Shown piece by piece: positions 3,441-17,329 of a stretch of 64,000 nucleotides of DNA. Numbering within the stretch: the stretch's first letter is position 1; the number at the start of each line of letters is the position of its first letter. The position numbers were made by a program, and so were the translations under genes. The notes beneath the pieces are model-generated. The model saw only the letters and a program-made list of their open reading frames with translations. It was not told the origin of the DNA and ran no database searches. Source of the DNA: Polaribacter sp. (GTDB lineage Bacteria > Bacteroidota > Bacteroidia > Flavobacteriales > Flavobacteriaceae); the NCBI RefSeq assembly GCF_024639685.1, contig NZ_JAHEHX010000021.1:248001-312000 (forward strand). Direction: 5' to 3'.

Positions 3441-4222
3441 TTATTTATAAATGAACTTAAATTTCTCATAAGACACTTTTGTTTTTGGCCCTGCTACTTG
3501 AGTATAAGCCCCTGCTTTAAAGAAAAAATTACCATCCATTGTTTTCCATAAATCACTAAGATTATACGAAATAACTCTTGCTTCATTTTTAGTCAGGTTT
3601 TTAATTTCTACGGCTAACTCATCTCCATCGCCAAGAATTTTAATAATACATTCTATCCTATCTTTTTCATCAAATGAGGTAAAAAAATCGTTTTCTACAT
3701 CTCCTTCGTTTTTTAAATAACTTTCTGTAACTACAACTCTTATATCATTTCCTCCTGCAATTTCCACTCTCAATAAAGGCCTTTTTACTCCTTTTGCATC
3801 ATTATGTATTTGACCAATGGTAACTCCTTTATTAGGGCTAGCATCTGGTACATCTTCAAAGGAGGCAATAAAATGCATAGCACTCTTAGCACTTAAATAT
3901 AAATCTTTCTCTTGTCTAATTTCGATTCTATCACTTTTTTGACCTGGAGAAATTAAAATCATTTTTCCATCTAACACATAGAAATAATCTTTGAAACAAA
4001 GTTCTTCTGCTTTTTTTAAATCTAACTTTGTTTTACCTTGATTTGTATAATAATGGAGTTTCGCATCAACTAAAGCTTATTAAGTTTTTCAATATCACCA
4101 GGCTTTATATTACAATTTACTGTGTTCTTCTGACAGTAACCTAAAGTTAGGTTAAAGAGTGCATACACAACAAAAAATATATAATTTAAATTGATAAAAT
4201 TAAGTTTAATAAACTTTTTAAT
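3441..4222 (-). pseudogene. Polysaccharide lyase family 7 (alginate lyase)-like gene, apparently inactivated
   Basis: C-terminal ORF has PL7-like motifs RIEIR, IGQIH and FFKAGAYTQ. The upstream coding sequence (KKFIKLNFINLNYIFFVVYALFNLTLGYCQKNTVNCNIKPGDIEKLNK) is in another frame, joined by a 1-nt deletion near 4078, and starts with ATT instead of ATG. Confidence 0.75.
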
Positions 4223-4386
4223 ATTTTGTTAATATAATCTATTATATAAACAATTTAAAGATACTAATTTTTTCAAAAAATTATTCCATAATTTATGAAG
4301 GATGATGTTAATAAATTCAATTTGTTGCGTTGTTATAATTCTAAAGATATCAATAAAAGTTATGATTTGTTTAGATCAAAATTCAC

Positions 4387-4394
4387 TACTTTTG
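4387..4394 (+). promoter_or_regulatory. Bacteroidetes -7 promoter box (TAnnTTTG)
   Basis: TACTTTTG 30 nt upstream of the PDH E1-beta start. Confidence 0.55.
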
Positions 4395-4424
4395 TTTTTT
4401 ATTTTTAATATACGATAATAACAA

Positions 4425-5402
4425 ATGAAAACAGTTCAATTTAGAGAAGCTATTTGCGAAGCAATGAGCGAAGAAATGCGCAGAGATGAAAGCATTTATT
4501 TAATGGGTGAAGAAGTTGCTGAATATAATGGTGCTTATAAGGCTAGTAAAGGAATGCTAGATGAGTTCGGTGAAAAAAGAGTTATTGATACTCCTATTGC
4601 TGAACTTGGTTTTGCAGGAATAGCAATCGGTTCTGCTATGAATGGTAACAGACCAATTGTAGAATATATGACATTTAATTTCTCTTTAGTTGGAATTGAT
4701 CAAATTATAAACAATGCTGCAAAAATTAGACAAATGTCTGGAGGTCAGTTCAACTGTCCTATTGTTTTTAGGGGACCTACAGCTTCTGCTGGTCAACTAG
4801 GTGCAACTCACTCTCAGGCTTTTGAAAACTGGTTTGCAAACACACCTGGTTTAAAAGTTATTGTGCCTTCAAATCCTTATGACGCAAAAGGTTTATTAAA
4901 AGCTGCAATTAGAGATGATGATCCAGTAATTTTTATGGAATCTGAACAAATGTATGGTGATAAAATGGAAATTCCTGAAGGAGAGTACATTATACCTATT
5001 GGAGTTGCAGATATTAAAAGAGAAGGAACTGATGTAACTATAGTTTCTTTTGGTAAAATTATCAAAGAAGCATACAAAGCTGCTGAAGAATTAGCCAAAG
5101 AAAATATTTCTGTAGAAATTATCGATTTAAGAACGGTAAGACCAATGGACCATGATGCTATTTTAACTTCTGTAAAGAAAACAAATCGTTTGGTAATTCT
5201 AGAAGAAGCATGGCCGTTCGCAAGTGTTGCTTCAGAAATCACATATAGAATACAAGACAAAGCATTTGATTATTTAGATGCCCCTATCAAAAGAATAACA
5301 ACTGCAGATACTCCAGCTCCTTATTCTCCAGTATTACTTGAGAAATGGATTCCAAATCATAATGATGTTGTGAAAGCTGTAAAAGAAGTTTTATATTTAT
5401 AA
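4425..5402 (+). CDS. Pyruvate dehydrogenase complex E1 component beta subunit
   Basis: MKTVQFREAICEAMSEEMRRDESIYLMGEEVAEYNGAYKASKGM...; transketolase-like PYR domain and C-terminal domain. Confidence 0.93.
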   Translation: MKTVQFREAICEAMSEEMRRDESIYLMGEEVAEYNGAYKASKGMLDEFGEKRVIDTPIAELGFAGIAIGSAMNGNRPIVEYMTFNFSLVGIDQIINNAAKIRQMSGGQFNCPIVFRGPTASAGQLGATHSQAFENWFANTPGLKVIVPSNPYDAKGLLKAAIRDDDPVIFMESEQMYGDKMEIPEGEYIIPIGVADIKREGTDVTIVSFGKIIKEAYKAAEELAKENISVEIIDLRTVRPMDHDAILTSVKKTNRLVILEEAWPFASVASEITYRIQDKAFDYLDAPIKRITTADTPAPYSPVLLEKWIPNHNDVVKAVKEVLYL

Positions 5403-5424
5403 AGATTTTCACTTTAAAAATTAT

Positions 5425-5462
5425 AAAAAATCCTTTTTTCTCAATTGAAAAAAGGATTTTTT
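5425..5462 (+). terminator. Rho-independent terminator
   Basis: AAAAAATCCTTTTTTCtcaattGAAAAAAGGATTTTTT. Confidence 0.8.
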
Positions 5463-5543
5463 ATTGATATCATAATATTCAATTTATGCGAAATTCATTG
5501 CGTAAATTTACTCTTTAAATTTCTCTGAAGATTAAGCTTTCAC

Positions 5544-5551
5544 TATTTTTG
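5544..5551 (+). promoter_or_regulatory. Bacteroidetes -7 promoter box
   Basis: TATTTTTG 27 nt upstream of ppa. Confidence 0.5.
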
Positions 5552-5577
5552 CTGCAAAATAATTCAGTAAAAAAATA

Positions 5578-6111
5578 ATGAGCAAAGAACAAAAAAAACA
5601 AGTAACATTTGACGTACTTATAGAAATACCTAAAGGGAGTAGAAACAAATACGAATATGACTTTACTCTCCATAAAATACGTTTTGATAGAATGTTATTC
5701 TCTTCTATGATGTACCCTGGAGATTATGGGTTTATACCAGAAACTCTAGCATTAGATTCAGATCCATTAGATGTTTTAGTATTAGGTCACCAACCTACTT
5801 ATCCAATGGTAGTTATGGAAGTAAGACCAATTGGAGTATTCTATATGACTGATGAAAAAGGGCCAGATGAAAAAGTTATTTGTGTACCTGTTTCTGATCC
5901 AATTTGGAGTAAAAAATCAGATATTACAGATTTAAACCCACATAGACTAAAAGAAATTGAACACTTTTTTCAAGTTTATAAAGACTTAGAAAAGAAAAAA
6001 GTTGACACTGGAGGATGGGGAAATGCAGAAGCAGCTATAAAAATTTATAACGAATGTGTAGCACGATATGACAATAGTGAACACAAGAAAAAAAGAACTT
6101 TTACTATTTAA
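5578..6111 (+). CDS. ppa: Inorganic pyrophosphatase, family I (soluble)
   Basis: IEIPKGSRNKYEYD, YPGDYGFIPETLALDSDPLDVLVLG. Confidence 0.95.
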   Translation: MSKEQKKQVTFDVLIEIPKGSRNKYEYDFTLHKIRFDRMLFSSMMYPGDYGFIPETLALDSDPLDVLVLGHQPTYPMVVMEVRPIGVFYMTDEKGPDEKVICVPVSDPIWSKKSDITDLNPHRLKEIEHFFQVYKDLEKKKVDTGGWGNAEAAIKIYNECVARYDNSEHKKKRTFTI

Positions 6112-6128
6112 TTAGTCAAAAAAGAATA

Positions 6129-6165
6129 CACAAAACATCTTAATTTATTAAGATGTTTTTTTGTG
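6129..6165 (+). terminator. Rho-independent terminator
   Basis: CACAAAACATCTTAATttaTTAAGATGTTTTTTTGTG. Confidence 0.8.
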
Positions 6166-6324
6166 CATAAAATTATTTTTTAGCTTCATTATATAATACA
6201 AAAACATAAAAGAAATACAATCAAATCTTCATTAATTTATAAAAGTGAAAATATAATAATTTAAGAGTTAAATAAATAAATAATCTTTAATTTCTATAGT
6301 CTTTTTTTATCAATTTAATTTTAT

Positions 6325-6332
6325 TACTTTTG
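6325..6332 (+). promoter_or_regulatory. Bacteroidetes -7 promoter box
   Basis: TACTTTTG 42 nt upstream of hppA. Confidence 0.5.
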
Positions 6333-6373
6333 GCCTCGTTTTAAAATTCAATAATTTAAATTAACTAACAAAT

Positions 6374-8761
6374 ATGGAATTATTAGTAAACTATTTATGG
6401 GCTTTTGGTCTTTTAGCCCTTGCTTTCGTTTTTATTAAAAGTGCTTGGGTTTCTAAGCAAGATGAAGGTGAAGACAGAATGAAAAGAATTGCAAAAAATA
6501 TTGCTGATGGAGCAATGTCTTTTCTAAAAGCTGAGTACAAAGTACTTGCAATTTTTGTGGTAGCAGTAGCTATCCTATTATACTTTAAAGGAAGTGCAGA
6601 AGTAGGGTCTAGTGGAGTTGTGGCAATATCTTTTATTATAGGGGCAATTTGTTCTGCTTTAGCAGGATTTATTGGAATGAAAGTAGCAACAAAAGCCAAT
6701 GTAAGAACTACACAAGCTGCAAGAACATCTTTAGGAAGAGCATTAGAGGTTGCCTTTGCAGGTGGAGCTGTAATGGGACTTGGTGTTGTTGGTCTTGGTG
6801 TATTAGGATTGAGTGGTTTATTCATGATTTATCAAAATATATGGCCAGGTGCTGAAAACTTAACACTAGTATTAAACGTTCTTTCTGGTTTCTCATTAGG
6901 TGCTTCTTCAATTGCTTTATTTGCAAGAGTTGGTGGTGGTATTTACACAAAGGCAGCTGATGTTGGTGCTGATTTAGTTGGTAAAGTAGAAGCTGGAATT
7001 CCTGAAGATCATCCATTAAATCCTGCAACAATTGCAGATAACGTTGGTGATAATGTAGGTGATGTTGCTGGAATGGGAGCAGATTTATTTGAATCTTATG
7101 TAGGTTCAATTATTGGTACTATGGTTTTAGGTGCTTTTATTATTACACCTGACTTAAATGGATTAGGTGCTGTTTACTTACCATTAGTATTAGCTGCTGT
7201 TGGAATTGTGATGTCAATTTTAGGGTCATTCTTTGTAAGAGTAAAAGATGGAGGAAATCCTCAAACTGCTTTAAATATTGGTGAATTTGGATCAGCTGGT
7301 TTAATGGTTGTTGCATCTTATTTTATAATTAATGCTCTAATTCCTGAAGCTGTAGAAGGTTTACCTTTTGGTGCTATGGGTGTATTTTGGGCAACTATTG
7401 CTGGTTTAGTAGCTGGTTTAGCTGTAGGTAAAATAACAGAATATTACACAGCTACAGGAAAAGGACCTGTTAATTCAATTGTTGAACAATCTGAAACTGG
7501 ATCTGCAACAAATATTATTGCTGGTTTAGGTGTTGGAATGATGTCCACTGCTATACCAATTATTTTAATAGCTGCTGCAATTATTGTTTCACATCATTAT
7601 GCTGGGTTATATGGTATTGCAATTGCTGCTGTTGGTATGTTAGCAAACACTGGTATTCAATTAGCTGTAGATGCTTATGGTCCCATATGTGATAATGCTG
7701 GTGGTATTGCTGAAATGGCAGAATTACCAAGTGAAGTTAGAGAACGTACTGATAAATTAGATGCTGTTGGTAACACAACTGCTGCTGTTGGTAAAGGTTT
7801 TGCAATTGCATCTGCTGCTTTAACAGCATTGGCTTTATTTGCTGCTTTTATGAAAACTGCTAATGTTACAGCTATTGATGTTTCTCAGCCTAAAATTATG
7901 GCAGGATTATTAGTTGGTGGAATGTTGCCATTCGTTTTTTCTGCATTATCTATGAATGCTGTAGGTAGAGCTGCAATGGCTATGATTGAAGAAGTACGTC
8001 GTCAGTTTAGAGATATTCCTCAATTAAAAGCTGCTTTAGAAGTTATGAGAGCAGTAGATTCTGATATGACAAAAGCAACTAAAGAGCAAAGAGCAATTTT
8101 TGATGCTGCTGATGGTGTTGCTGAATATGACAAATGTGTTGATATCTCTACAAAGGCATCAATTAAAGAAATGGTTTTACCAGGTTTATTAGCTATTGCT
8201 GTTCCTGTTGCTGTTGGTTTTATTGGTGGTTCAGAAATGCTAGGAGGTTTATTAGCTGGTGTAACAACATGTGGTGTTTTAATGGCAATCTTTCAATCAA
8301 ATGCAGGTGGTGCTTGGGATAATGCTAAGAAGACTATTGAAGAACAAGGAAAAAAAGGAACTGATGCTCATAAAGCAGCAGTTGTAGGAGACACAGTTGG
8401 TGATCCTTTTAAAGACACTTCTGGACCTTCTTTAAATATTCTTTTAAAACTAATGTCTGTTGTTGCTTTAGTAATTGCACCAAGTATTGCAATGAATAGT
8501 GCAGATGTATCTGATTACAATACTAAGAAAGAAGTAAAAGTAGAGATCAAACAAACTACTGGAGATTTAGCAATGGCTACAATTACAACAACAAAAACTA
8601 TTGATGGAGTTGTTACTGAAGATATTCAAAAAATTGAGGGAACTGTTGAAGAAATAGAAAAAAAAGCAAAAGAAGCTGGAGAAATAGCTTCTGTAAATGT
8701 TTCTAAAAATAAAAAAGAAGTAACAAAAAAAATTGAAGTTATTGTTGAGAAACAAGAGTAA
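6374..8761 (+). CDS. hppA: Membrane-bound ion-translocating pyrophosphatase, K+-dependent type, with charged C-terminal tail
   Basis: [69 protein letters not shown] has Ala at the K+-dependence position; ~80-aa K/E-rich C-terminal extension. Confidence 0.95.
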
Positions 8762-8780
8762 ATTCAATTTAAATTATTTA

Positions 8781-8810
8781 AAAAAGCATCCAAAATTGGA
8801 TGCTTTTTTT
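8781..8810. terminator. Bidirectional terminator between convergent hppA and pxpC
   Basis: AAAAAGCATCCAaaatTGGATGCTTTTTTT. Confidence 0.8.
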
Positions 8811-9657
8811 ATGGAATTAATTTAAACTTAAATTTGTTATTAGTTGTCTTTTGAGCTAATATATTTATTGAATTTTCTGTTAATTGTATTATTCTTGGAT
8901 ATCCTCCAGTAACTTGACAATCTCTCATTAATACAATTAATTTACCTGAAGGCGTTATCTGAACAGTACCTGGAATAACAGCTGATGTTAGAATTTGTTC
9001 AAAATTATTTTCTACTATTTCATTCAGTTTAAAACCCATTCTATTATTATCTATAGATAATGAAAAAGATTTCTCAAATAATATATTTTGTTGTTCTTTA
9101 TTTAATAAATCAAATTCAGGTCCTTTAAAACATTCTATTATTTCTGATTCAAAATGATTTTTACTTATTTTTATTAATGAATTTGAATCTCTTAAATCTT
9201 GATCAAATGTATTATAATTTATAATATCGTTTTTTTTGAGAAGAAAATTTTTTGTGACATTTCGATAAAAACTTCTACTACCTAATTTTATTTCTGATAA
9301 AAAACCTCCTTTTACAGCAATGTAACAACGGACACCATACTTCACTTTTCCAAAGGATAAAACGTCATGTTTTTCGACTATAATTCTTTGATTTATTGAA
9401 ATAGGTTTATCGTTAATAGTAGGTGAAAAATTTCCACCAGAAATTGCAATCTCAGTATTTTCTAAAAATAAAAATTTACAAGCTCCTAGTGTTATTTCAA
9501 TAACAGCAGCATCTAGAGAATTATTTAAAATATGATTTGTTAAATCAGATGAAAAAAAATCCATAACTCCAGAAACAGGTACTCCAATTGATGCAAAACC
9601 AACTCTTCCTTTATCCTGTATAGATGTAAAAAAACCTGCTTTTAAAACTTTAAGCAT
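8809..9657 (-). CDS. pxpC: 5-oxoprolinase subunit C (biotin-dependent carboxyltransferase / AHS2 family)
   Basis: VLKAGFFTSIQDKGRVGFASIGVPVSGVMD; operon with pxpB and pxpA. Confidence 0.9.
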   Translation of the reverse strand: MLKVLKAGFFTSIQDKGRVGFASIGVPVSGVMDFFSSDLTNHILNNSLDAAVIEITLGACKFLFLENTEIAISGGNFSPTINDKPISINQRIIVEKHDVLSFGKVKYGVRCYIAVKGGFLSEIKLGSRSFYRNVTKNFLLKKNDIINYNTFDQDLRDSNSLIKISKNHFESEIIECFKGPEFDLLNKEQQNILFEKSFSLSIDNNRMGFKLNEIVENNFEQILTSAVIPGTVQITPSGKLIVLMRDCQVTGGYPRIIQLTENSINILAQKTTNNKFKFKLIP

Positions 9658-10381
9658 CAGTGGAAATTTTTATTAGTTGATACTTATTTTTTAAAATTTC
9701 ATTTTCAATATGATAAAATTCTTCTAAAGAAATAGATTTGAATTTTATAAAATCACCTGCTTTTGCAAAACAAGTTACCTCTTTTTCCAAATCAAAAAAG
9801 TGTATTGGTGTTTTCCCAATAATATTCCAACCACCAGCAGATACATTAGGGTAGACACCAGTTTGCATACCTCCTATTCCAACTGCCCCCTTAACAACAT
9901 TCAATCTTGGATTGGGTTTTCTATCAAAATAGAGTCGTTCATTTAAACCTCCTAGATAAAGAAAACCTGGTAAAAAACCTATAAAGTAAATTTTGTAAAC
10001 TACCTCTGAATGTAGGTTTATAATTTCTTGAATATCTAAATTTGATTTTTGTGATATTTCTTTAAGATCTATTCCAAATTCTAAATCATAACAAACAGGA
10101 ATTTCCCATTGATAATATTTTTGTTCTTTTATATTTTGTGTTGATTTATATTCTGTTTTTAGAATAGATACTTGTTTTTTAAAGTCATTAATATAACTTC
10201 TAAAAATGACCGTTAAAGAATTATACCCTTGAATTAAATCTATAAAATCAACATTTTTATTTACTAGAAGTTTTTCTTTATAAATCAAAATATCATTCAA
10301 AATGAAATCATCAATTACTGACTTCCATTCTATCAAAATTGCCTTTTCCCCAAATCGCTTATATGTTAGATTTTCAGCCAA
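9650..10381 (-). CDS. pxpB: 5-oxoprolinase subunit B (AHS1/KipI family)
   Basis: FIGFLPGFLYLGGLNERLYFDRKPNPRLNVVKGAVGIGGMQTGVYPNVSAGGWNIIGKTP. Confidence 0.92.
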   Translation of the reverse strand: MAENLTYKRFGEKAILIEWKSVIDDFILNDILIYKEKLLVNKNVDFIDLIQGYNSLTVIFRSYINDFKKQVSILKTEYKSTQNIKEQKYYQWEIPVCYDLEFGIDLKEISQKSNLDIQEIINLHSEVVYKIYFIGFLPGFLYLGGLNERLYFDRKPNPRLNVVKGAVGIGGMQTGVYPNVSAGGWNIIGKTPIHFFDLEKEVTCFAKAGDFIKFKSISLEEFYHIENEILKNKYQLIKISTDA

Positions 10382-11105
10382 TTGTATATTCTTCTTTTTT
10401 TAAATTTTGATATAAAAATTTTAAAATTTCTAGTGCATTTTCAGTATCACTATGCACACAAAACGTATCTACTTTTATTTCTTTTTCTAAACCAGAAACA
10501 GTTTTCACCTTATTTCTTTTAACCATATTAAAAACATGTTTAAAAACTTTTTTTTCATTAACCAATAATGCGTTTTTTTCTTTTCTAGAAAGCAAGGTTA
10601 AATTATCAGTATAGTTTCTGTCAGCAAAAACTTCATATTTTATTTTTATGTTATTTGCTATAGCAACTCTCTCTATTACAGATTGATAAGGAACATACAA
10701 ATATGAATATTTTAGATAATCTTTAATGATTTCAATAAAAATATTTGCTAATTTTTCATCAATAGCTACTGCATTGTACAATGCTCCATGAGGTTTTATA
10801 TGATGAAATTCTGCTCCAAAATAAGACAATCGAGTTAAAAAAAAATCAAGCTGATTTTGAATACTAATTTTTAATTCTTCACTTGAAATTTTTATCAATT
10901 TTCTACCGAAATTCACTTTATCAGGAAAAGATGGATGTGCACCAATCTTAACATTATTTTCTATAGCTAATTTTATAGTTTTATCAATTGAATGTTGATC
11001 ACCAAAGTGTCCTCCACAAGCTATATTACAAGATGAAATATATGACATTATTAAATGTTCATTTAATACTCCTTCTCCAACATCACAATTAATATCAATC
11101 TTCAT
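10374..11105 (-). CDS. pxpA: 5-oxoprolinase subunit A (LamB/YcsF family)
   Basis: IDINCDVGEG, SCNIACGGHFGDQHSIDKTIKLAIENNVKIGAHPSFPD, HIKPHGALYN. Confidence 0.93.
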   Translation of the reverse strand: MKIDINCDVGEGVLNEHLIMSYISSCNIACGGHFGDQHSIDKTIKLAIENNVKIGAHPSFPDKVNFGRKLIKISSEELKISIQNQLDFFLTRLSYFGAEFHHIKPHGALYNAVAIDEKLANIFIEIIKDYLKYSYLYVPYQSVIERVAIANNIKIKYEVFADRNYTDNLTLLSRKEKNALLVNEKKVFKHVFNMVKRNKVKTVSGLEKEIKVDTFCVHSDTENALEILKFLYQNLKKEEYTIG

Positions 11106-11106
11106 T

Positions 11107-12333
11107 TTATAATAAATTAAACACTTTCAAAATTCCTTTTGCCCCTAAAAAGACAGTAATAGCTATAATGATAAACCCTAAAACATTTTGTTTTTTTGTA
11201 TTTACAAAACTTCCTAAGACATTCTTTTTATTCATAATCCATAATAAAATTCCAGCAATTAATGGTAAAAGCATTCCATTAGCAACTTGAGCAAATTTTA
11301 TAATTTCAATAGGTTTAATACCAATTGAAGAAAATAAAACACCTAAAAATAAAATAACCATCCAAACTGCTCTAAAAGATTTTGATTGCATGTTACCTTT
11401 AAAACCCAAACAACCCTTAGCTACATAAGCAGCAGCTAAAGGTGCAGTAATAGCAGAAGTAATTCCTGCTGCAAATAAACCTAAAGCTAAAAAGTATTTT
11501 GCAAATTCACCATATAAAGGAGCTAATCCTTCCGCTAAATCTGCTACATTTAAAATATCTTTTGATGGAATAGATGCAGCAGAAACAATTATAGCCATGG
11601 AAACTAATCCTCCTAAAACAATAGAAACAATGGTATCTTTTTTAGCTAATAAAACATCTTCTTTTTTCTTCCATCTTTCTTTTACCAAAGAAGCATGTAA
11701 AAACAAATTATAGGGAACCACTGTAGTTCCAATTAAACCAATTATAGTTAGTAAACTTTTCTCAGGAAATTTAGGAACAAACATTCCTTTTAAAATTTGT
11801 AAAATACTTGGTTTAGTAACAACTGCTGTAATTAAAAACGAAAAACTCATCAATAACACTAAAGTGACTAATGCTTTTTCTAAAAATTTATAATTACCAA
11901 TATATAAGAGAACAAAAGCAATAAGCCCTATAATGATACTCATAAAGTTGATAGAAAAGTTACCAAAAATGAATTTGAATTCTCCAAAAACAGTTTCTAA
12001 TCCTAAAATTCCTCCACTAATATTTCCTGCTTCATAAGAAGCGTTTCCAATTACAATTGCTGATAAAATTAAAATAGTAATAAACTGTTTTAAAAAAGGA
12101 ATTCTTATTTCTTCTCTTATAACTTCTGATAATCCTTTTTGGGAAATAATACCTAATCTTGCTGCCATCTCTTGTAAAATAATGGTCGCAATTATAGACA
12201 ATAACATTGCCCATAATAAATTAAATCCAAAATTGACACCAGCTAAAGTACATAATGTAACTGTTCCTGGGCCAATAAATGCTGCTGCAACTAAAGTTCC
12301 TGGGCCAACATTTCGAATCCATTTTATTATCAT
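11107..12333 (-). CDS. NRAMP-fold transporter with non-canonical substrate-site motifs, first gene of the pxpABC operon
   Basis: NRAMP fold clear (GPGTLVAAAFIGPGTVTLCTLAGVNFGFNLLW; IGTTVVPYNLFLHASL), but DPGN is replaced by GPGT and MPH by VPY. Confidence 0.88.
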   Translation of the reverse strand: MIIKWIRNVGPGTLVAAAFIGPGTVTLCTLAGVNFGFNLLWAMLLSIIATIILQEMAARLGIISQKGLSEVIREEIRIPFLKQFITILILSAIVIGNASYEAGNISGGILGLETVFGEFKFIFGNFSINFMSIIIGLIAFVLLYIGNYKFLEKALVTLVLLMSFSFLITAVVTKPSILQILKGMFVPKFPEKSLLTIIGLIGTTVVPYNLFLHASLVKERWKKKEDVLLAKKDTIVSIVLGGLVSMAIIVSAASIPSKDILNVADLAEGLAPLYGEFAKYFLALGLFAAGITSAITAPLAAAYVAKGCLGFKGNMQSKSFRAVWMVILFLGVLFSSIGIKPIEIIKFAQVANGMLLPLIAGILLWIMNKKNVLGSFVNTKKQNVLGFIIIAITVFLGAKGILKVFNLL

Positions 12334-12380
12334 AAAAAGTCTATTTAATTTTCTGAATAAATATACTTTTTTAAAAAGAA

Positions 12381-12404
12381 AAACACCTCAAAATTGAGGT
12401 GTTT
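12381..12404 (-). terminator. Terminator of pckA
   Basis: AAACACCTCAaaatTGAGGTGTTT. Confidence 0.75.
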
Positions 12405-12429
12405 ATATTATTTAAAAAACTTTTATATA

Positions 12430-14040
12430 TTAATAAGCATATCTTTGAGGACCACCTCTTCTAATTTCTTCACTTGCAAATTCTTCAAACTGTTTAAAGT
12501 TATTTCTAAATGCATTCGATAATTTAAAGGCAGTTTCGTAATAAGCATCATCATTATTCCAAGTTGCTCTCGGACTTAATAATTCTGTTGGCACTCCAGG
12601 GCAAGATCTTGGTTGTGCAACACCAAATACTGAGTGAATATGGTAATCTTCATAAGTATAATCTTTTAAATCTCCATTTAACACAGCAGTAATCATTGCT
12701 CTAGTATATTTTAATGGCATTCTTCTACCTACACCATATTTACCTCCAGACCATCCTGTGTTTACCAACCAAACGTTTACGCCAGCCTCTGTCATTTTTT
12801 TACTTAGCATTTCTGCATACTTAGTAGGATGTAAAGGCATAAATGGCGCTCCAAAACAAGCTGAAAAACTTGGTACTGGTTCTGTTACACCTGCTTCTGT
12901 ACCTGCTACTTTTGCTGTATAACCAGAGATAAAGTGATACGCTGCTTGACTAGGTGTTAATTTAGATATTGGAGGTAGTACACCAAATGCATCTGCTGTT
13001 AAAAAGAAGATGTTTTTCGGGTTTTTACCAATAGATGGTTTCTGAATATTATTTATATGATAAATAGGGTAACTAACTCTTGTATTTTGGGTAATTGAAG
13101 TGTCTGAAAAATCGACAGCTCCGTTATCATCCATAATTACATTCTCTAAAATTGCACCTTTCTTAATTGCAGAAAAGATTTCTGGTTCTTGTTCTTGTGA
13201 TAAGTTAATCACCTTTGCATAACAACCTCCTTCAAAATTAAAAACGGTGTTTTCTGCTGTCCAGCCATGTTCATCATCTCCAATTAAACTCCTATTTGGG
13301 TCTGTAGATAACGTAGTTTTACCAGTACCAGATAAACCAAAGAAAATAGCTGTATCTCCCTCTTTACCTACGTTTGCAGAACAGTGCATAGGTAATATAT
13401 TCTTATAAACTGGTAATATAAAATTAAGAGCATAAAAAATACCTTTTTTAATTTCACCTGTGTAACCTGTACCACCAATTAAAGCAATCTTCTTAGAAAA
13501 GTTTAAAATTGAAAAATTATGCTGACGAGTTCCATCTACAGCAGCATCTGCCATAAAACCTGGGGCATTAATTACTGTCCATTCAGGAGTAAAGTTTTGT
13601 AACTCATCTTCTGTTGGCCTTAAGAACATGTTGTAAGCAAACATGTTGCTCCAAGGATATTCATTAACCACTCTAATATTTAATTTGTAATTTTCGTCTA
13701 CACAAGCATAACTATCTCTTACAAATATTTCTTTTTCCGATAAATAATTGACAACCTTATTATAAAGGCTATCGAATTTATTATCATCAAAAGGTAAATT
13801 AATGTTACTCCAATAAACTTCGTCTTTTGTAATTTCATCTTTTACAATAAAACGATCCATAGGTGAACGCCCTGTAAATTCACCTGTATTTATAGCAATT
13901 GCGCCTAAAGATGATTCTACTCCTTGTTCTTTCTGTAAAGTTACTTGATGTAATTCGTTAGAAGTTAATTGATAACGAATTGTTGCATTTTTTATTCCTA
14001 GACTATTTAACGAAATCGATTTCGTATTTATATCTACCAT
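12430..14040 (-). CDS. pckA: Phosphoenolpyruvate carboxykinase (ATP)
   Basis: GEFTGRSPMDRFIV, FFGLSGTGKTTLSTDPNRSLIGDDEHGW. Confidence 0.97.
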   Translation of the reverse strand: MVDINTKSISLNSLGIKNATIRYQLTSNELHQVTLQKEQGVESSLGAIAINTGEFTGRSPMDRFIVKDEITKDEVYWSNINLPFDDNKFDSLYNKVVNYLSEKEIFVRDSYACVDENYKLNIRVVNEYPWSNMFAYNMFLRPTEDELQNFTPEWTVINAPGFMADAAVDGTRQHNFSILNFSKKIALIGGTGYTGEIKKGIFYALNFILPVYKNILPMHCSANVGKEGDTAIFFGLSGTGKTTLSTDPNRSLIGDDEHGWTAENTVFNFEGGCYAKVINLSQEQEPEIFSAIKKGAILENVIMDDNGAVDFSDTSITQNTRVSYPIYHINNIQKPSIGKNPKNIFFLTADAFGVLPPISKLTPSQAAYHFISGYTAKVAGTEAGVTEPVPSFSACFGAPFMPLHPTKYAEMLSKKMTEAGVNVWLVNTGWSGGKYGVGRRMPLKYTRAMITAVLNGDLKDYTYEDYHIHSVFGVAQPRSCPGVPTELLSPRATWNNDDAYYETAFKLSNAFRNNFKQFEEFASEEIRRGGPQRYAY

Positions 14041-14124
14041 ATCAATATTTTTTTATTTTTATAAGTAACAAAACTAATGAATATTTTAAAACAACGTGAT
14101 TATTAGAAAATATTTACGTATTTT

Positions 14125-14505
14125 TTAATTATTTTTTATTTTTTTTACGAATACTATAATTATTAAAAGCCAAGCAATTATAAAAAACAAACCTCCTAAA
14201 GGTGTTGTAAACCAAATAGATTTTGCAGTTATAGAGGTTAATTGTATGCAATAGATAGATCCTGAAAACAATATAATACCTGAAAATAAAAGATAACTTA
14301 TGGTATTTTTTTGCTTTTCTGTAAATCCATCATAAAGGTTAATAATAAGCAGTATTATTACATGATACATCTGATAACGAACTGCAGTTTCAAAACTCTG
14401 TAAACTTTCTTGGGTTAAGGTTCCCTTTAAAGCATGTGCTCCAAAAGCACCTAGAATAACAGCGGACAATCCCAAAAAAGAAGCAATAACTATATTTTTA
14501 AACAT
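14125..14505 (-). CDS. DUF423 family small membrane protein
   Basis: LGAFGAHALKGTLTQESLQSFETAVRYQMYHVIILL. Confidence 0.85.
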   Translation of the reverse strand: MFKNIVIASFLGLSAVILGAFGAHALKGTLTQESLQSFETAVRYQMYHVIILLIINLYDGFTEKQKNTISYLLFSGIILFSGSIYCIQLTSITAKSIWFTTPLGGLFFIIAWLLIIIVFVKKIKNN

Positions 14506-14577
14506 TTTTATTTGTTTTTGTTATATTTTAAACAATTATATTATCTTCGTTTATATATCAAAAATACGTTTTATTTC

Positions 14578-15945
14578 ATGAAAAAAATTTTGATTATTGG
14601 TTCTGGAAAATCGAGTTCATCTCTTATTAAATACTTATTAGACAAAGCTGACAAAGAAAATCTGTTTTTAACGATTGGAGATTTAGACATTAAGAATGCT
14701 AAGAAATTGGTTAATAATCATAAAAAAACCAATGTTATTCAGTTTGATGTATTTAACGATAATCAAAGACAGCATGAAATTAAAAATTCTGATTTAGTAA
14801 TTTCTATGTTGCCTGCAAGATTCCACATAGAAGTAGCAAAAGATTGTATTACATTTAAAAAACACATGGTTACTGCATCTTATATTTCTAAAGAGATTCA
14901 AGCATTAAATGAACAAGCCAAAGAAAATAATCTCATTTTTATGAATGAGATAGGCTTAGATCCTGGTTTAGATCATATGAGTGCCATTAAAGTGATCGAT
15001 TCTATCAGAGAAAGAAGTGGAAAACTATTATTATTTGAATCTTTTTGTGGAGGATTGGTTGCTCCAGAAAGTGATACTAATCTATGGAATTATAAATTTA
15101 CTTGGAATCCTAGAAATGTGGTTTTAGCAGGTCAAGGAGGAGCAGCTATGTTTATTCAAGAAAGTACTTATAAATACATTCCTTATCATAAATTATTTAG
15201 AAGAACTGAATTCTTAAAAATAGAAGATAAAAGGTATGAAGCATATGCTAATAGAGATTCGTTAAAATATAGAAATATGTATGGTTTAGATAATATACCA
15301 ACCATGTATAGAGGCACTATTAGAAAGATTGGATTTTCTAGAGCATGGAACATTTTTATTCAATTAGGTATGACAGATGATTCTTACACAATAGAAGGTT
15401 CTGAAAACATGAGTTATCGTGATTTTGTAAACTTATTCTTGGCTTATTCGCCTTCTGATTCTGTAGAGCTAAAATTGCGCTCTTACTTAAAGATTGATCA
15501 AGATGATATTATGTGGGAAAAATTAGTAGAATTGGGTTTATTTAATCCAAAGAAAAAAGTGAAACTCAAAAATGCAACTCCTGCTCAAATCCTACAAAAA
15601 ATATTAGAAGATTCTTGGACCCTAAAAAGTGATGACAAAGACATGATTGTTATGCAGCATTTATTTGGATACGAATTAAATAATAATAAAAAACAGATAG
15701 AAAGCAGCTTGGTTGTTAAAGGAGAAAATCAAACCTATACTGCAATGGCTAAAACAGTAGGTTTACCTGTTGCTATTGCTGCTTTAAAAATATTAAAAGG
15801 AGAAATAAAAACTCCTGGGGTTCAATTGCCAATTCGTAAAGAGGTCTACGAGCCAATTTTAAAAGAACTTGAAAATTATGGCATCACTTTTAAAGAAAAA
15901 GAAGTTCCTTATTTAGGATATAACCCTAATCATGTTAGAGGATAA
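14578..15945 (+). CDS. Saccharopine dehydrogenase family protein
   Basis: MKKILIIGSGKSSSSLIKYLL..., NEIGLDPGLDHMSAIKVID; start at internal ATG 14578 preferred over 14512. Confidence 0.9.
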   Translation: MKKILIIGSGKSSSSLIKYLLDKADKENLFLTIGDLDIKNAKKLVNNHKKTNVIQFDVFNDNQRQHEIKNSDLVISMLPARFHIEVAKDCITFKKHMVTASYISKEIQALNEQAKENNLIFMNEIGLDPGLDHMSAIKVIDSIRERSGKLLLFESFCGGLVAPESDTNLWNYKFTWNPRNVVLAGQGGAAMFIQESTYKYIPYHKLFRRTEFLKIEDKRYEAYANRDSLKYRNMYGLDNIPTMYRGTIRKIGFSRAWNIFIQLGMTDDSYTIEGSENMSYRDFVNLFLAYSPSDSVELKLRSYLKIDQDDIMWEKLVELGLFNPKKKVKLKNATPAQILQKILEDSWTLKSDDKDMIVMQHLFGYELNNNKKQIESSLVVKGENQTYTAMAKTVGLPVAIAALKILKGEIKTPGVQLPIRKEVYEPILKELENYGITFKEKEVPYLGYNPNHVRG

Positions 15946-16671
15946 TTACATTTTTAAATAAAACTCTTTCGTTAAAGATACATAGGCTTCTGTGTATTTA
16001 TGTCTTTCAGTTTCAATAATTAGTTCTTGAATATCAATGGCACTTTGGTGAAAAGAAAACTCTAGTAAACTGCGCTTAACAGTGGATGTCTTATTGCCCT
16101 TTACATGACAGATTCGATTAACGTACAAACCTTGTTTTTTTGCTAATTCTATAAATGTGACCTCCTCTTTTCTAGGAATTATAGTAGAGAAACATCCATC
16201 ATCATTCAATATCATTGCAACACCTTTTAATAAATCTTCAAATGACAAAGAAGATGTAAATCTTGCTTTATTTCTAGAATCGTTACCTGTTTCAAAATCA
16301 TCTGAATAAAAAGGAGGATTAGATACAACTAAACCATAACTTTCCTCTTCCTCTTCAATTTCGGTAGCAAAATCAGTAAAATCAGAATGATAACAAAATA
16401 AGCGATCACTCCAGTCTGAACCTTCAAAATTCTCTACAGTTTGCTCATAAGCATCAACATCAAGTTCTACTGCGTCAATTGTAAAAGCTTCAGAACGTTG
16501 AGCCATAATTAAACTAATAACTCCTGTACCTGTACCAATATCGAGTATAGATTCTATATCATTAGTAACAGAACACCAAGCACCCAAAAGAACTCCATCA
16601 GTTCCAATTTTCATTGCGGTTTTATTTTGGTGAACCGTAAACTCTTTAAAATGAAAAGGCTTGCTACTCAT
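15946..16671 (-). CDS. tRNA1(Val) A37 N6-methyltransferase (TrmN6/YfiC-like)
   Basis: KIGTDGVLLGAW, ILDIGTGTGVISLIMAQR, VVSNPPFY. Confidence 0.9.
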   Translation of the reverse strand: MSSKPFHFKEFTVHQNKTAMKIGTDGVLLGAWCSVTNDIESILDIGTGTGVISLIMAQRSEAFTIDAVELDVDAYEQTVENFEGSDWSDRLFCYHSDFTDFATEIEEEEESYGLVVSNPPFYSDDFETGNDSRNKARFTSSLSFEDLLKGVAMILNDDGCFSTIIPRKEEVTFIELAKKQGLYVNRICHVKGNKTSTVKRSLLEFSFHQSAIDIQELIIETERHKYTEAYVSLTKEFYLKM

Positions 16672-16798
16672 AGACTTTTAATTTCAACAAAATTAAGCTA
16701 TTCAAAAAAAATGCTCCTAAAAAGAAAAATGGAAATGCAAATAAGTTTGCAAAGATTCACTTTAATTTTAGAATTCCTTAGTAATTATAAGAATTTCT

Positions 16799-17329
16799 TT
16801 ATGAATTTAGATATAGATCGATTAAACCGGTTGGTGTCTCTACTTCTATTTTTTTATGAATTCTGTCTACTTTTTTAATAAAGTTATCAATCATAGGTAT
16901 AAAGATTTCTTTCTCGTCTTTATTTATTTCAAATAAAGGCTGAGCAGCTTTATCATTTATATGAACTATGACACCAACATAACCAAAATTTATATCGATT
17001 ACCTGAAAACCAATAACTTCATGATAATAAAACTTATCTCCTGAGAGTTTCGGCAATAAGTCTAAAGGCAAATAAATTCCACATTTTAAAATAGAATCGG
17101 CCTCTTCTTCAGAATAAATGTCTTCGAATTGTACACGTAATTGATTCCCTTTATGAAGAGAGCTTTTTTCAATAAAAAATGGAACCAGGTTTGTGCCAAA
17201 TTCGACATAAACTGATTCCATATTTTTATACAACTCGGGCTCGTCTGTATCTAGTTTGATAACAACTTCACCCTTAAAACTATATTTTGTTACGATTCTG
17301 CCTAAATAAAAACACTCTTCTTTACGCAT
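16799..17329 (-). CDS. rimM: Ribosome maturation factor RimM
   Basis: FYLGRIVTKYSFKGEVVIKLDTDEPELY; C-terminal LFEI..KEIFIPMIDNFIKKVD; adjacent to rpsP. Confidence 0.92.
   Translation of the reverse strand: MRKEECFYLGRIVTKYSFKGEVVIKLDTDEPELYKNMESVYVEFGTNLVPFFIEKSSLHKGNQLRVQFEDIYSEEEADSILKCGIYLPLDLLPKLSGDKFYYHEVIGFQVIDINFGYVGVIVHINDKAAQPLFEINKDEKEIFIPMIDNFIKKVDRIHKKIEVETPTGLIDLYLNS

Follow-up and report, generated by a model that had tools for sequence, protein, structure and literature searches.

A probable 5-oxoproline importer of the NRAMP fold heads a pxpABC operon in Polaribacter

A gene for an NRAMP-like protein stands at the head of the 5-oxoprolinase genes pxpA, pxpB and pxpC in Polaribacter sp. 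(contig NZ_JAHEHX010000021.1, positions 248,001 to 312,000, a stretch of 64,000 nucleotides referred to here as the window), and the question that this locus raises is what such a transporter carries. An earlier note had suggested a non-canonical substrate such as 5-oxoproline, and had expected annotation pipelines to label the protein a divalent metal transporter, as they indeed do. We favor, as the likely explanation, that the operon serves the uptake and use of 5-oxoproline (pyroglutamate), with the transporter importing this compound for subsequent conversion to glutamate. The replacement of the metal-site residues and a conserved genomic linkage both support the suggested substrate. Gene order, sequence signature, the fold of the model, the clade (designated W, the clade containing the window protein) and the linkage of this clade to two unrelated families of lactam-opening enzymes were established in the present analysis.

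Canonical NRAMPs bind metal through a DPGN motif on transmembrane helix (TM) 1 and an A..MPH motif on TM6, and carry a conserved Glu on TM3. The corresponding segments of the window protein are as follows.

12256..12285, minus strand: TM1 AAFIGPGTVT, residues 17-26, with G21 and T24 where canonical proteins have the Asp and Asn that bind metal; helix broken at 20-21 (alignment, model)
12022..12036, minus strand: TM3 YEAGN, residues 100-104, with N104 where canonical NRAMPs have their conserved Glu; a candidate residue for specificity (alignment)
11695..11730, minus strand: TM6 GTTVVPYNLFLH, residues 202-213, in which T203, V206 and Y208 replace Ala, Met and His; helix break at 206 (alignment, model)
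11275..11289, minus strand: TM10 QVANG, residues 349-353, with Q349 kept from canonical NRAMPs and N352 replacing Leu (alignment)

The GPGT and VPY motifs that had been read at the metal sites were borne out by alignment, and the replacement goes further than had been claimed, extending to T203 and N104: D is replaced by G21, N by T24, A by T203, M by V206, H by Y208 and the TM3 Glu by N104, which aligns with E134 of DraNramp. G21, N104, V206, Y208 and N352 were invariant among W relatives (99/99), while positions 21, 104, 208 and 352 were D, E, H and L, and position 206 was M, in 6/6 canonical NRAMPs. With G21, N104 and Y208 unchanged throughout these 99 relatives, the replacements are not attributable to chance. 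We found no metal ligands supplied by other residues; every canonical metal-site residue is replaced, each time by an invariant one. The sole common variation in the TM6 core was observed in haloarchaeal W proteins (L034-L036, L038, L091-L104), where the proline is a glycine (TTVVGYN).

An AlphaFold2 model of the transporter (pLDDT 88.9, pTM 0.88) had TM1 broken at residues 20-21 and TM6 at residue 206, which are the motif positions. In fold comparisons DraNramp, EleNRMT and BfraNramp came first and amino-acid transporters of the APC type next. The canonical Slc11/MntH proteins DraNramp, ScaDMT and BfraNramp share the fold (template-modelling score [TM-score] 0.78-0.83) and Q349 on TM10, and differ from W in DPGN, MPH and the TM3 Glu, all of which W replaces. 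The closest fold by query TM-score (0.84) was the NRMT protein EleNRMT, which, like W, is without DPGN and MPH. The APC transporters ApcT, AdiC and GkApcT, which belong to another Pfam family, were more distant LeuT-fold matches (TM-score 0.58-0.67, 13-18% identity).

The operon and its boundaries comprise the following features.

11107..12333, minus strand: transporter, W-clade Nramp-related protein of 408 amino acids with the LeuT/NRAMP fold, proposed 5-oxoproline importer (open reading frame [ORF] list, PF01566, structure model)
10374..11105, minus strand: pxpA, 5-oxoprolinase subunit A (LamB/YcsF), core motifs intact (NCBIfam, Pfam)
9650..10381, minus strand: pxpB, 5-oxoprolinase subunit B, with a TTG start (ORF list, NCBIfam, Pfam)
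8809..9657, minus strand: pxpC, divergent 5-oxoprolinase subunit C, matching PF02626 (ORF list, NCBIfam, Pfam)
12381..12404, minus strand: hairpin with a T tract, resembling a terminator, at the end of the upstream pckA, isolating the operon (sequence scan)
about 8780..8809, strand undefined: hairpin that separates pxpC from the convergent hppA and is probably a bidirectional terminator (sequence read)

The ORF coordinates agree with the arrangement described earlier: pxpA begins 1 nt downstream of the transporter gene, pxpA and pxpB overlap by 8 nt, as do pxpB and pxpC, and the genes for all three subunits are present and contiguous. The four products gave strong Pfam matches (PF01566, PF03746, PF02682 and PF02626), the transporter scoring 306 bits against PF01566. 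PxpA (231.7 vs a cut-off of 226) and PxpB (167.5 vs 145.6) pass their NCBIfam cut-offs. The transporter misses the curated cut-offs for MntH (163.5 vs 430 bits) and TIGR01197 (109.2 vs 272.5 bits), and the only NCBIfam model that it passes is a broad one, NF037982, “Nramp family divalent metal transporter.” Because hairpins bound the operon at the pckA end and at the hppA end, the sequence is consistent with the single transcript that had been suggested; scanning the operon for sigma-70 promoters performed no better than on shuffles.

That the transporter gene accompanies pxpABC across genomes was evident at two scales. In a survey of 151 Flavobacteriaceae genomes, one per genus although from lineages that are not fully independent, W occurred in 96, PxpA in 107, both in 95 and W alone in 1 (Fisher p = 1.6e-25). 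W adjoins pxpA in 91 of the 95 genera that have both, while none of the 35 other NRAMPs in PxpA-bearing genomes does so. Among 80 loci from many phyla, taken as the best from a scan of GTDB genomes, 54 had linked pxpABC, one had pxpABC divergently oriented nearby, and 19 were linked to hyu, by which we mean HyuA/HyuB or a fused homologue of about 1250-1290 amino acids, an ATP-dependent hydantoinase/oxoprolinase that is non-homologous to pxpABC. Where the linkage to pxpABC breaks, another ATP-dependent lactam- or hydantoin-opening enzyme usually stands in its place. Haloarchaea encoded W in 38/146 genomes, with 36 of the 38 genes directly upstream of HyuA; PxpA was absent from 17/21 hyu-linked genomes, and the label switched between pxp and hyu at least three times on the tree. 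To our knowledge, 5-oxoproline is the only known substrate common to PxpABC and the HyuAB/OPLAH superfamily. Since the partner of W alternates between two non-homologous ATP-dependent families that share this known substrate, W most simply carries 5-oxoproline, and the presence of two unrelated partners of the 5-oxoproline type means that the substrate argument does not rest on a single operon. Our literature search found no paper that brings Nramp and haloarchaea together with a hydantoinase or an oxoprolinase.

Several haloarchaeal loci carry additional genes. A CopG-type ribbon-helix-helix regulator, possibly a local sensor comparable to PxpR, precedes W genes at L035:4322-4867, L036:4268-4813 and L038:4239-4784, and a gene of the Asp/Glu/hydantoin-racemase superfamily (arylmalonate decarboxylase/EutA-like) is found in several hyu operons (L034:9886-10620, L094, L096, L100).

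We infer the substrate, the direction of transport and the role of each residue, and the mechanism that we propose is as follows. W would take 5-oxoproline across the inner membrane by alternating access of the LeuT type. APC amino-acid carriers have a broken TM1 whose GxG turn binds the carboxylate of the substrate; by analogy, the backbone amides of the GPG turn (G21-P-G23) could hold the carboxylate of 5-oxoproline, while the lactam may be contacted by N104 on TM3, Y208 and T203/T204 on TM6, and Q349/N352 on TM10. PxpABC would then open the lactam with ATP to yield glutamate.

Transport of 5-oxoproline by an NRAMP-family protein has already been published, but for a different subfamily. Corynebacterium glutamicum requires PxpT, which is encoded in a pxpTABC operon and is 50% identical to Bacillus subtilis YcsG, for growth on 5-oxoproline (PMC13274462). 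Our tree separated W (support 97/99), the YcsG/PxpT/MumT group (100/100), named “G-motif 3” in PMC12873925, and canonical NRAMPs (100/100); a sister grouping of W and the YcsG group, which involves a long branch, was not rejected (approximately unbiased test, p = 0.32). The two groups have in common the NRAMP fold, GPG on TM1, G103-N104, Y208, N352 and an occurrence in pxpABC operons, and they differ in that the YcsG group reads GPGF on TM1 and GGTVGGY on TM6 where W reads GPGT and GTTVVPY. Five members of the YcsG/MumT group (from a Bacillus badius plasmid, two lactobacilli, Moraxella and Acinetobacter baumannii) were 45-66% identical to one another in the pairs compared, while their identity to the window protein was 20-23%. 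The window protein stands a little closer to canonical NRAMPs (25-27%), and its nearest named relative is from Polaribacter filamentus (84%), from which we infer a Polaribacter-like flavobacterium as the source. The structure of B. subtilis YcsG (9a52) aligned with the window protein model at 24% identity. Orthology with PxpT/YcsG/MumT was rejected on these identities and on surveys of the taxa that have those proteins, which did not find W homologues alongside them (W in 1/247 Actinomycetes and 3/274 Gammaproteobacteria, with the Bacilli survey giving a like result). By sequence, then, W is a clade separate from YcsG/PxpT/MumT, and for that reason what has been published on 5-oxoproline and manganese cannot be carried over to it directly. 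G21, N104, Y208 and N352 are nevertheless common to both groups (5/5 and 99/99) despite about 20% identity, and because of these four shared residues the linkage of W bears on the dispute over whether YcsG and MumT carry manganese or 5-oxoproline. No hyu-linked member of the YcsG group turned up, although no survey was aimed at one.

The loci of the two groups also share a gene family. The Natroniella operon reads pxpA, D-glutamate cyclase (PF07286), W, pxpB, pxpC, and PF07286 recurs both in the mum operon of A. baumannii and at the B. badius locus. At the latter it is named a “putative hydro-lyase,” and a B. subtilis-like set of pxpA, NRAMP and hydro-lyase genes is accompanied by pxpBC and an IclR regulator. 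The A. baumannii “manganese and urea” mum operon (L213:2457-9917; gene order mumR-T-L-U-H-C at the locus examined) resembles a 5-oxoprolinase operon, with genes for an NRAMP, PxpA, the D-glutamate cyclase family (PF07286), a PxpB-like protein and a biotin-carboxylase-like protein.

Besides the incomplete independence of the Flavobacteriaceae lineages, several observations weigh against 5-oxoproline import by W. PxpC, which we regard as divergent, scores 213.7 against CT_A_B (PF02626, cut-off 25) and falls under both NCBIfam cut-offs (186.9 vs 230.2 and 173.7 vs 500 bits). PxpA occurred without the transporter in 12 Flavobacteriaceae genomes, and 6/80 cross-phylum transporters had no linked enzyme. 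The best Protein Data Bank match of the hyu enzymes was N-methylhydantoinase and they missed all NCBIfam equivalog cut-offs, so that they could be hydantoinases or other lactamases and not 5-oxoprolinases. In the YcsG group itself, YcsG was given the new name MntG in a study that describes it as importing Mn2+ and in which its overexpression raises cellular Mn (PMC10448178), and A. baumannii MumT was reported as a Mn importer whose deletion leads to less cellular Mn and to Mn resistance (PMC5050338). The literature search returned no experimental work, transport included, on any W protein.

Under one alternative, W carries some other small compound of this type, either a cyclic amide or an amino acid, and the linked enzymes process it; the candidates would be a hydantoin, a further lactam, D-5-oxoproline and glutamate itself. 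The Hyu family spans hydantoinases, caprolactamase and ketone carboxylases, with unspecific matches here, the racemase-superfamily gene is added to some haloarchaeal operons, and the D-glutamate cyclase of the Natroniella operon points to the D-isomer. We consider this alternative unlikely, given that 5-oxoproline is, as far as we know, the sole substrate shared by the two enzyme families and that the window PxpA and PxpB pass the cut-offs for 5-oxoprolinase subunits.

It is still less probable, in our judgment, that W is a transporter of Mn2+/Fe2+ (or Mg2+) with an unusual site, whose place in the operon reflects a metal requirement of the enzyme. The NRAMP fold, the database names and the Mn effects of MumT deletion and YcsG overexpression speak for such a role, as does the case of EleNRMT, which transports Mg2+/Mn2+ although it has no canonical motif (PMC12873925, PMC10115441). 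NRMTs, however, have Trp at the His position (PMC10115441), where the window protein has Tyr208, and are associated with a magnesium riboswitch, the M-box (PMC4072509); there was no Rfam match, and thus no M-box, in window positions 4000-17000, and membership of the NRMTs was rejected on these two features. Moreover, all canonical metal-site residues of W are invariantly replaced, its gene neighbors are two lactam-opening enzymes unrelated to each other and not metal homeostasis genes, and the canonical-Glu position turns to Asp when the neighbor turns to the arginase family (see below). The remaining alternative, which we regard as very improbable, is that W serves to export or balance 5-oxoproline made inside the cell, or to trade it for glutamate, instead of importing a nutrient. 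In its favor, 5-oxoproline arises spontaneously in cells, the 12 genomes with PxpA and no transporter indicate that recycling needs no more than PxpABC, and sequence does not reveal direction; against it, the functional counterpart in C. glutamicum is needed for growth on external 5-oxoproline (PMC13274462).

A W subfamily from Bacilli (L183-L194, L199-L205) carries I101 and D104 with the TM1 and TM6 motifs kept, and adjoins a gene for an arginase-family hydrolase (agmatinase/hutG-like, below cut-offs), not 5-oxoprolinase, in 12/12 Bacilli genomes, an association that probably reflects one evolutionary event and not twelve. As D104 tracks the switch to arginase-family neighbors, residue 104 is a likely specificity residue. 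The position is Asn in the window protein, Glu in the metal transporters and Asp where the neighbor is of the arginase family, and it offers a single residue for probing how the NRAMP fold selects a metal, a neutral lactam or, possibly, a cationic guanidino compound. Guanidine was considered as a substrate of the D104 subfamily and set aside; no guanidine riboswitch was found near the arginase-linked W genes.

The earlier note had called the metal motifs “erased.” Replacement stands, as described above, while the implied loss probably has the polarity wrong: in the rooted phylogeny presented in PMC12873925, Nramp-related proteins are paraphyletic and basal to canonical Nramps, so that the metal ligands were more likely a later gain in the canonical line. 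Because two deep groups that are about 20% identical share the G-N-Y-N site and a 5-oxoprolinase partner, we tentatively raise the possibility, which we regard as doubtful, that transport of an organic acid such as 5-oxoproline was ancestral in NRAMPs and metal transport came later (G-N-Y-N to D-E-H-L), with a single N104D change in W adapting the site to a guanidino or amidino substrate of the arginase-family enzyme. The passage on Cellier’s “orphan outgroup” of PF01566 gives TM3 Tyr and Asn and TM6 Thr, Val and Tyr (PMC10606218), substituents identical to those of the window protein, and, judged on the quoted residues alone, W most likely belongs to this outgroup within the Nramp-related “G-motif” set. 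The passages on the outgroup and on other uncharacterized “G-motif” groups mention no function, substrate or enzyme linkage (PMC10606218, PMC12873925). The RefSeq label “divalent metal transporter” is probably wrong for W proteins from Flavobacteria to haloarchaea.

The window genome has two other NRAMP-family genes (G000:C15:48504-49721, L088, and G000:C10:536866-537897, L089), the first of which reads GTGS on TM1. Both are also without DPGN, so this genome yielded no canonical MntH. The W transporters without a linked 5-oxoprolinase gene include four from Gammaproteobacteria (L159, L141, L166 and L037). A further subgroup, with FVGPGTVL on TM1 and TTVVTYN on TM6, is encoded directly downstream of the genes for two 2-oxoacid:ferredoxin oxidoreductase subunits at two loci from the same phylum (L077:4147-8367 and L085:3749-7929).

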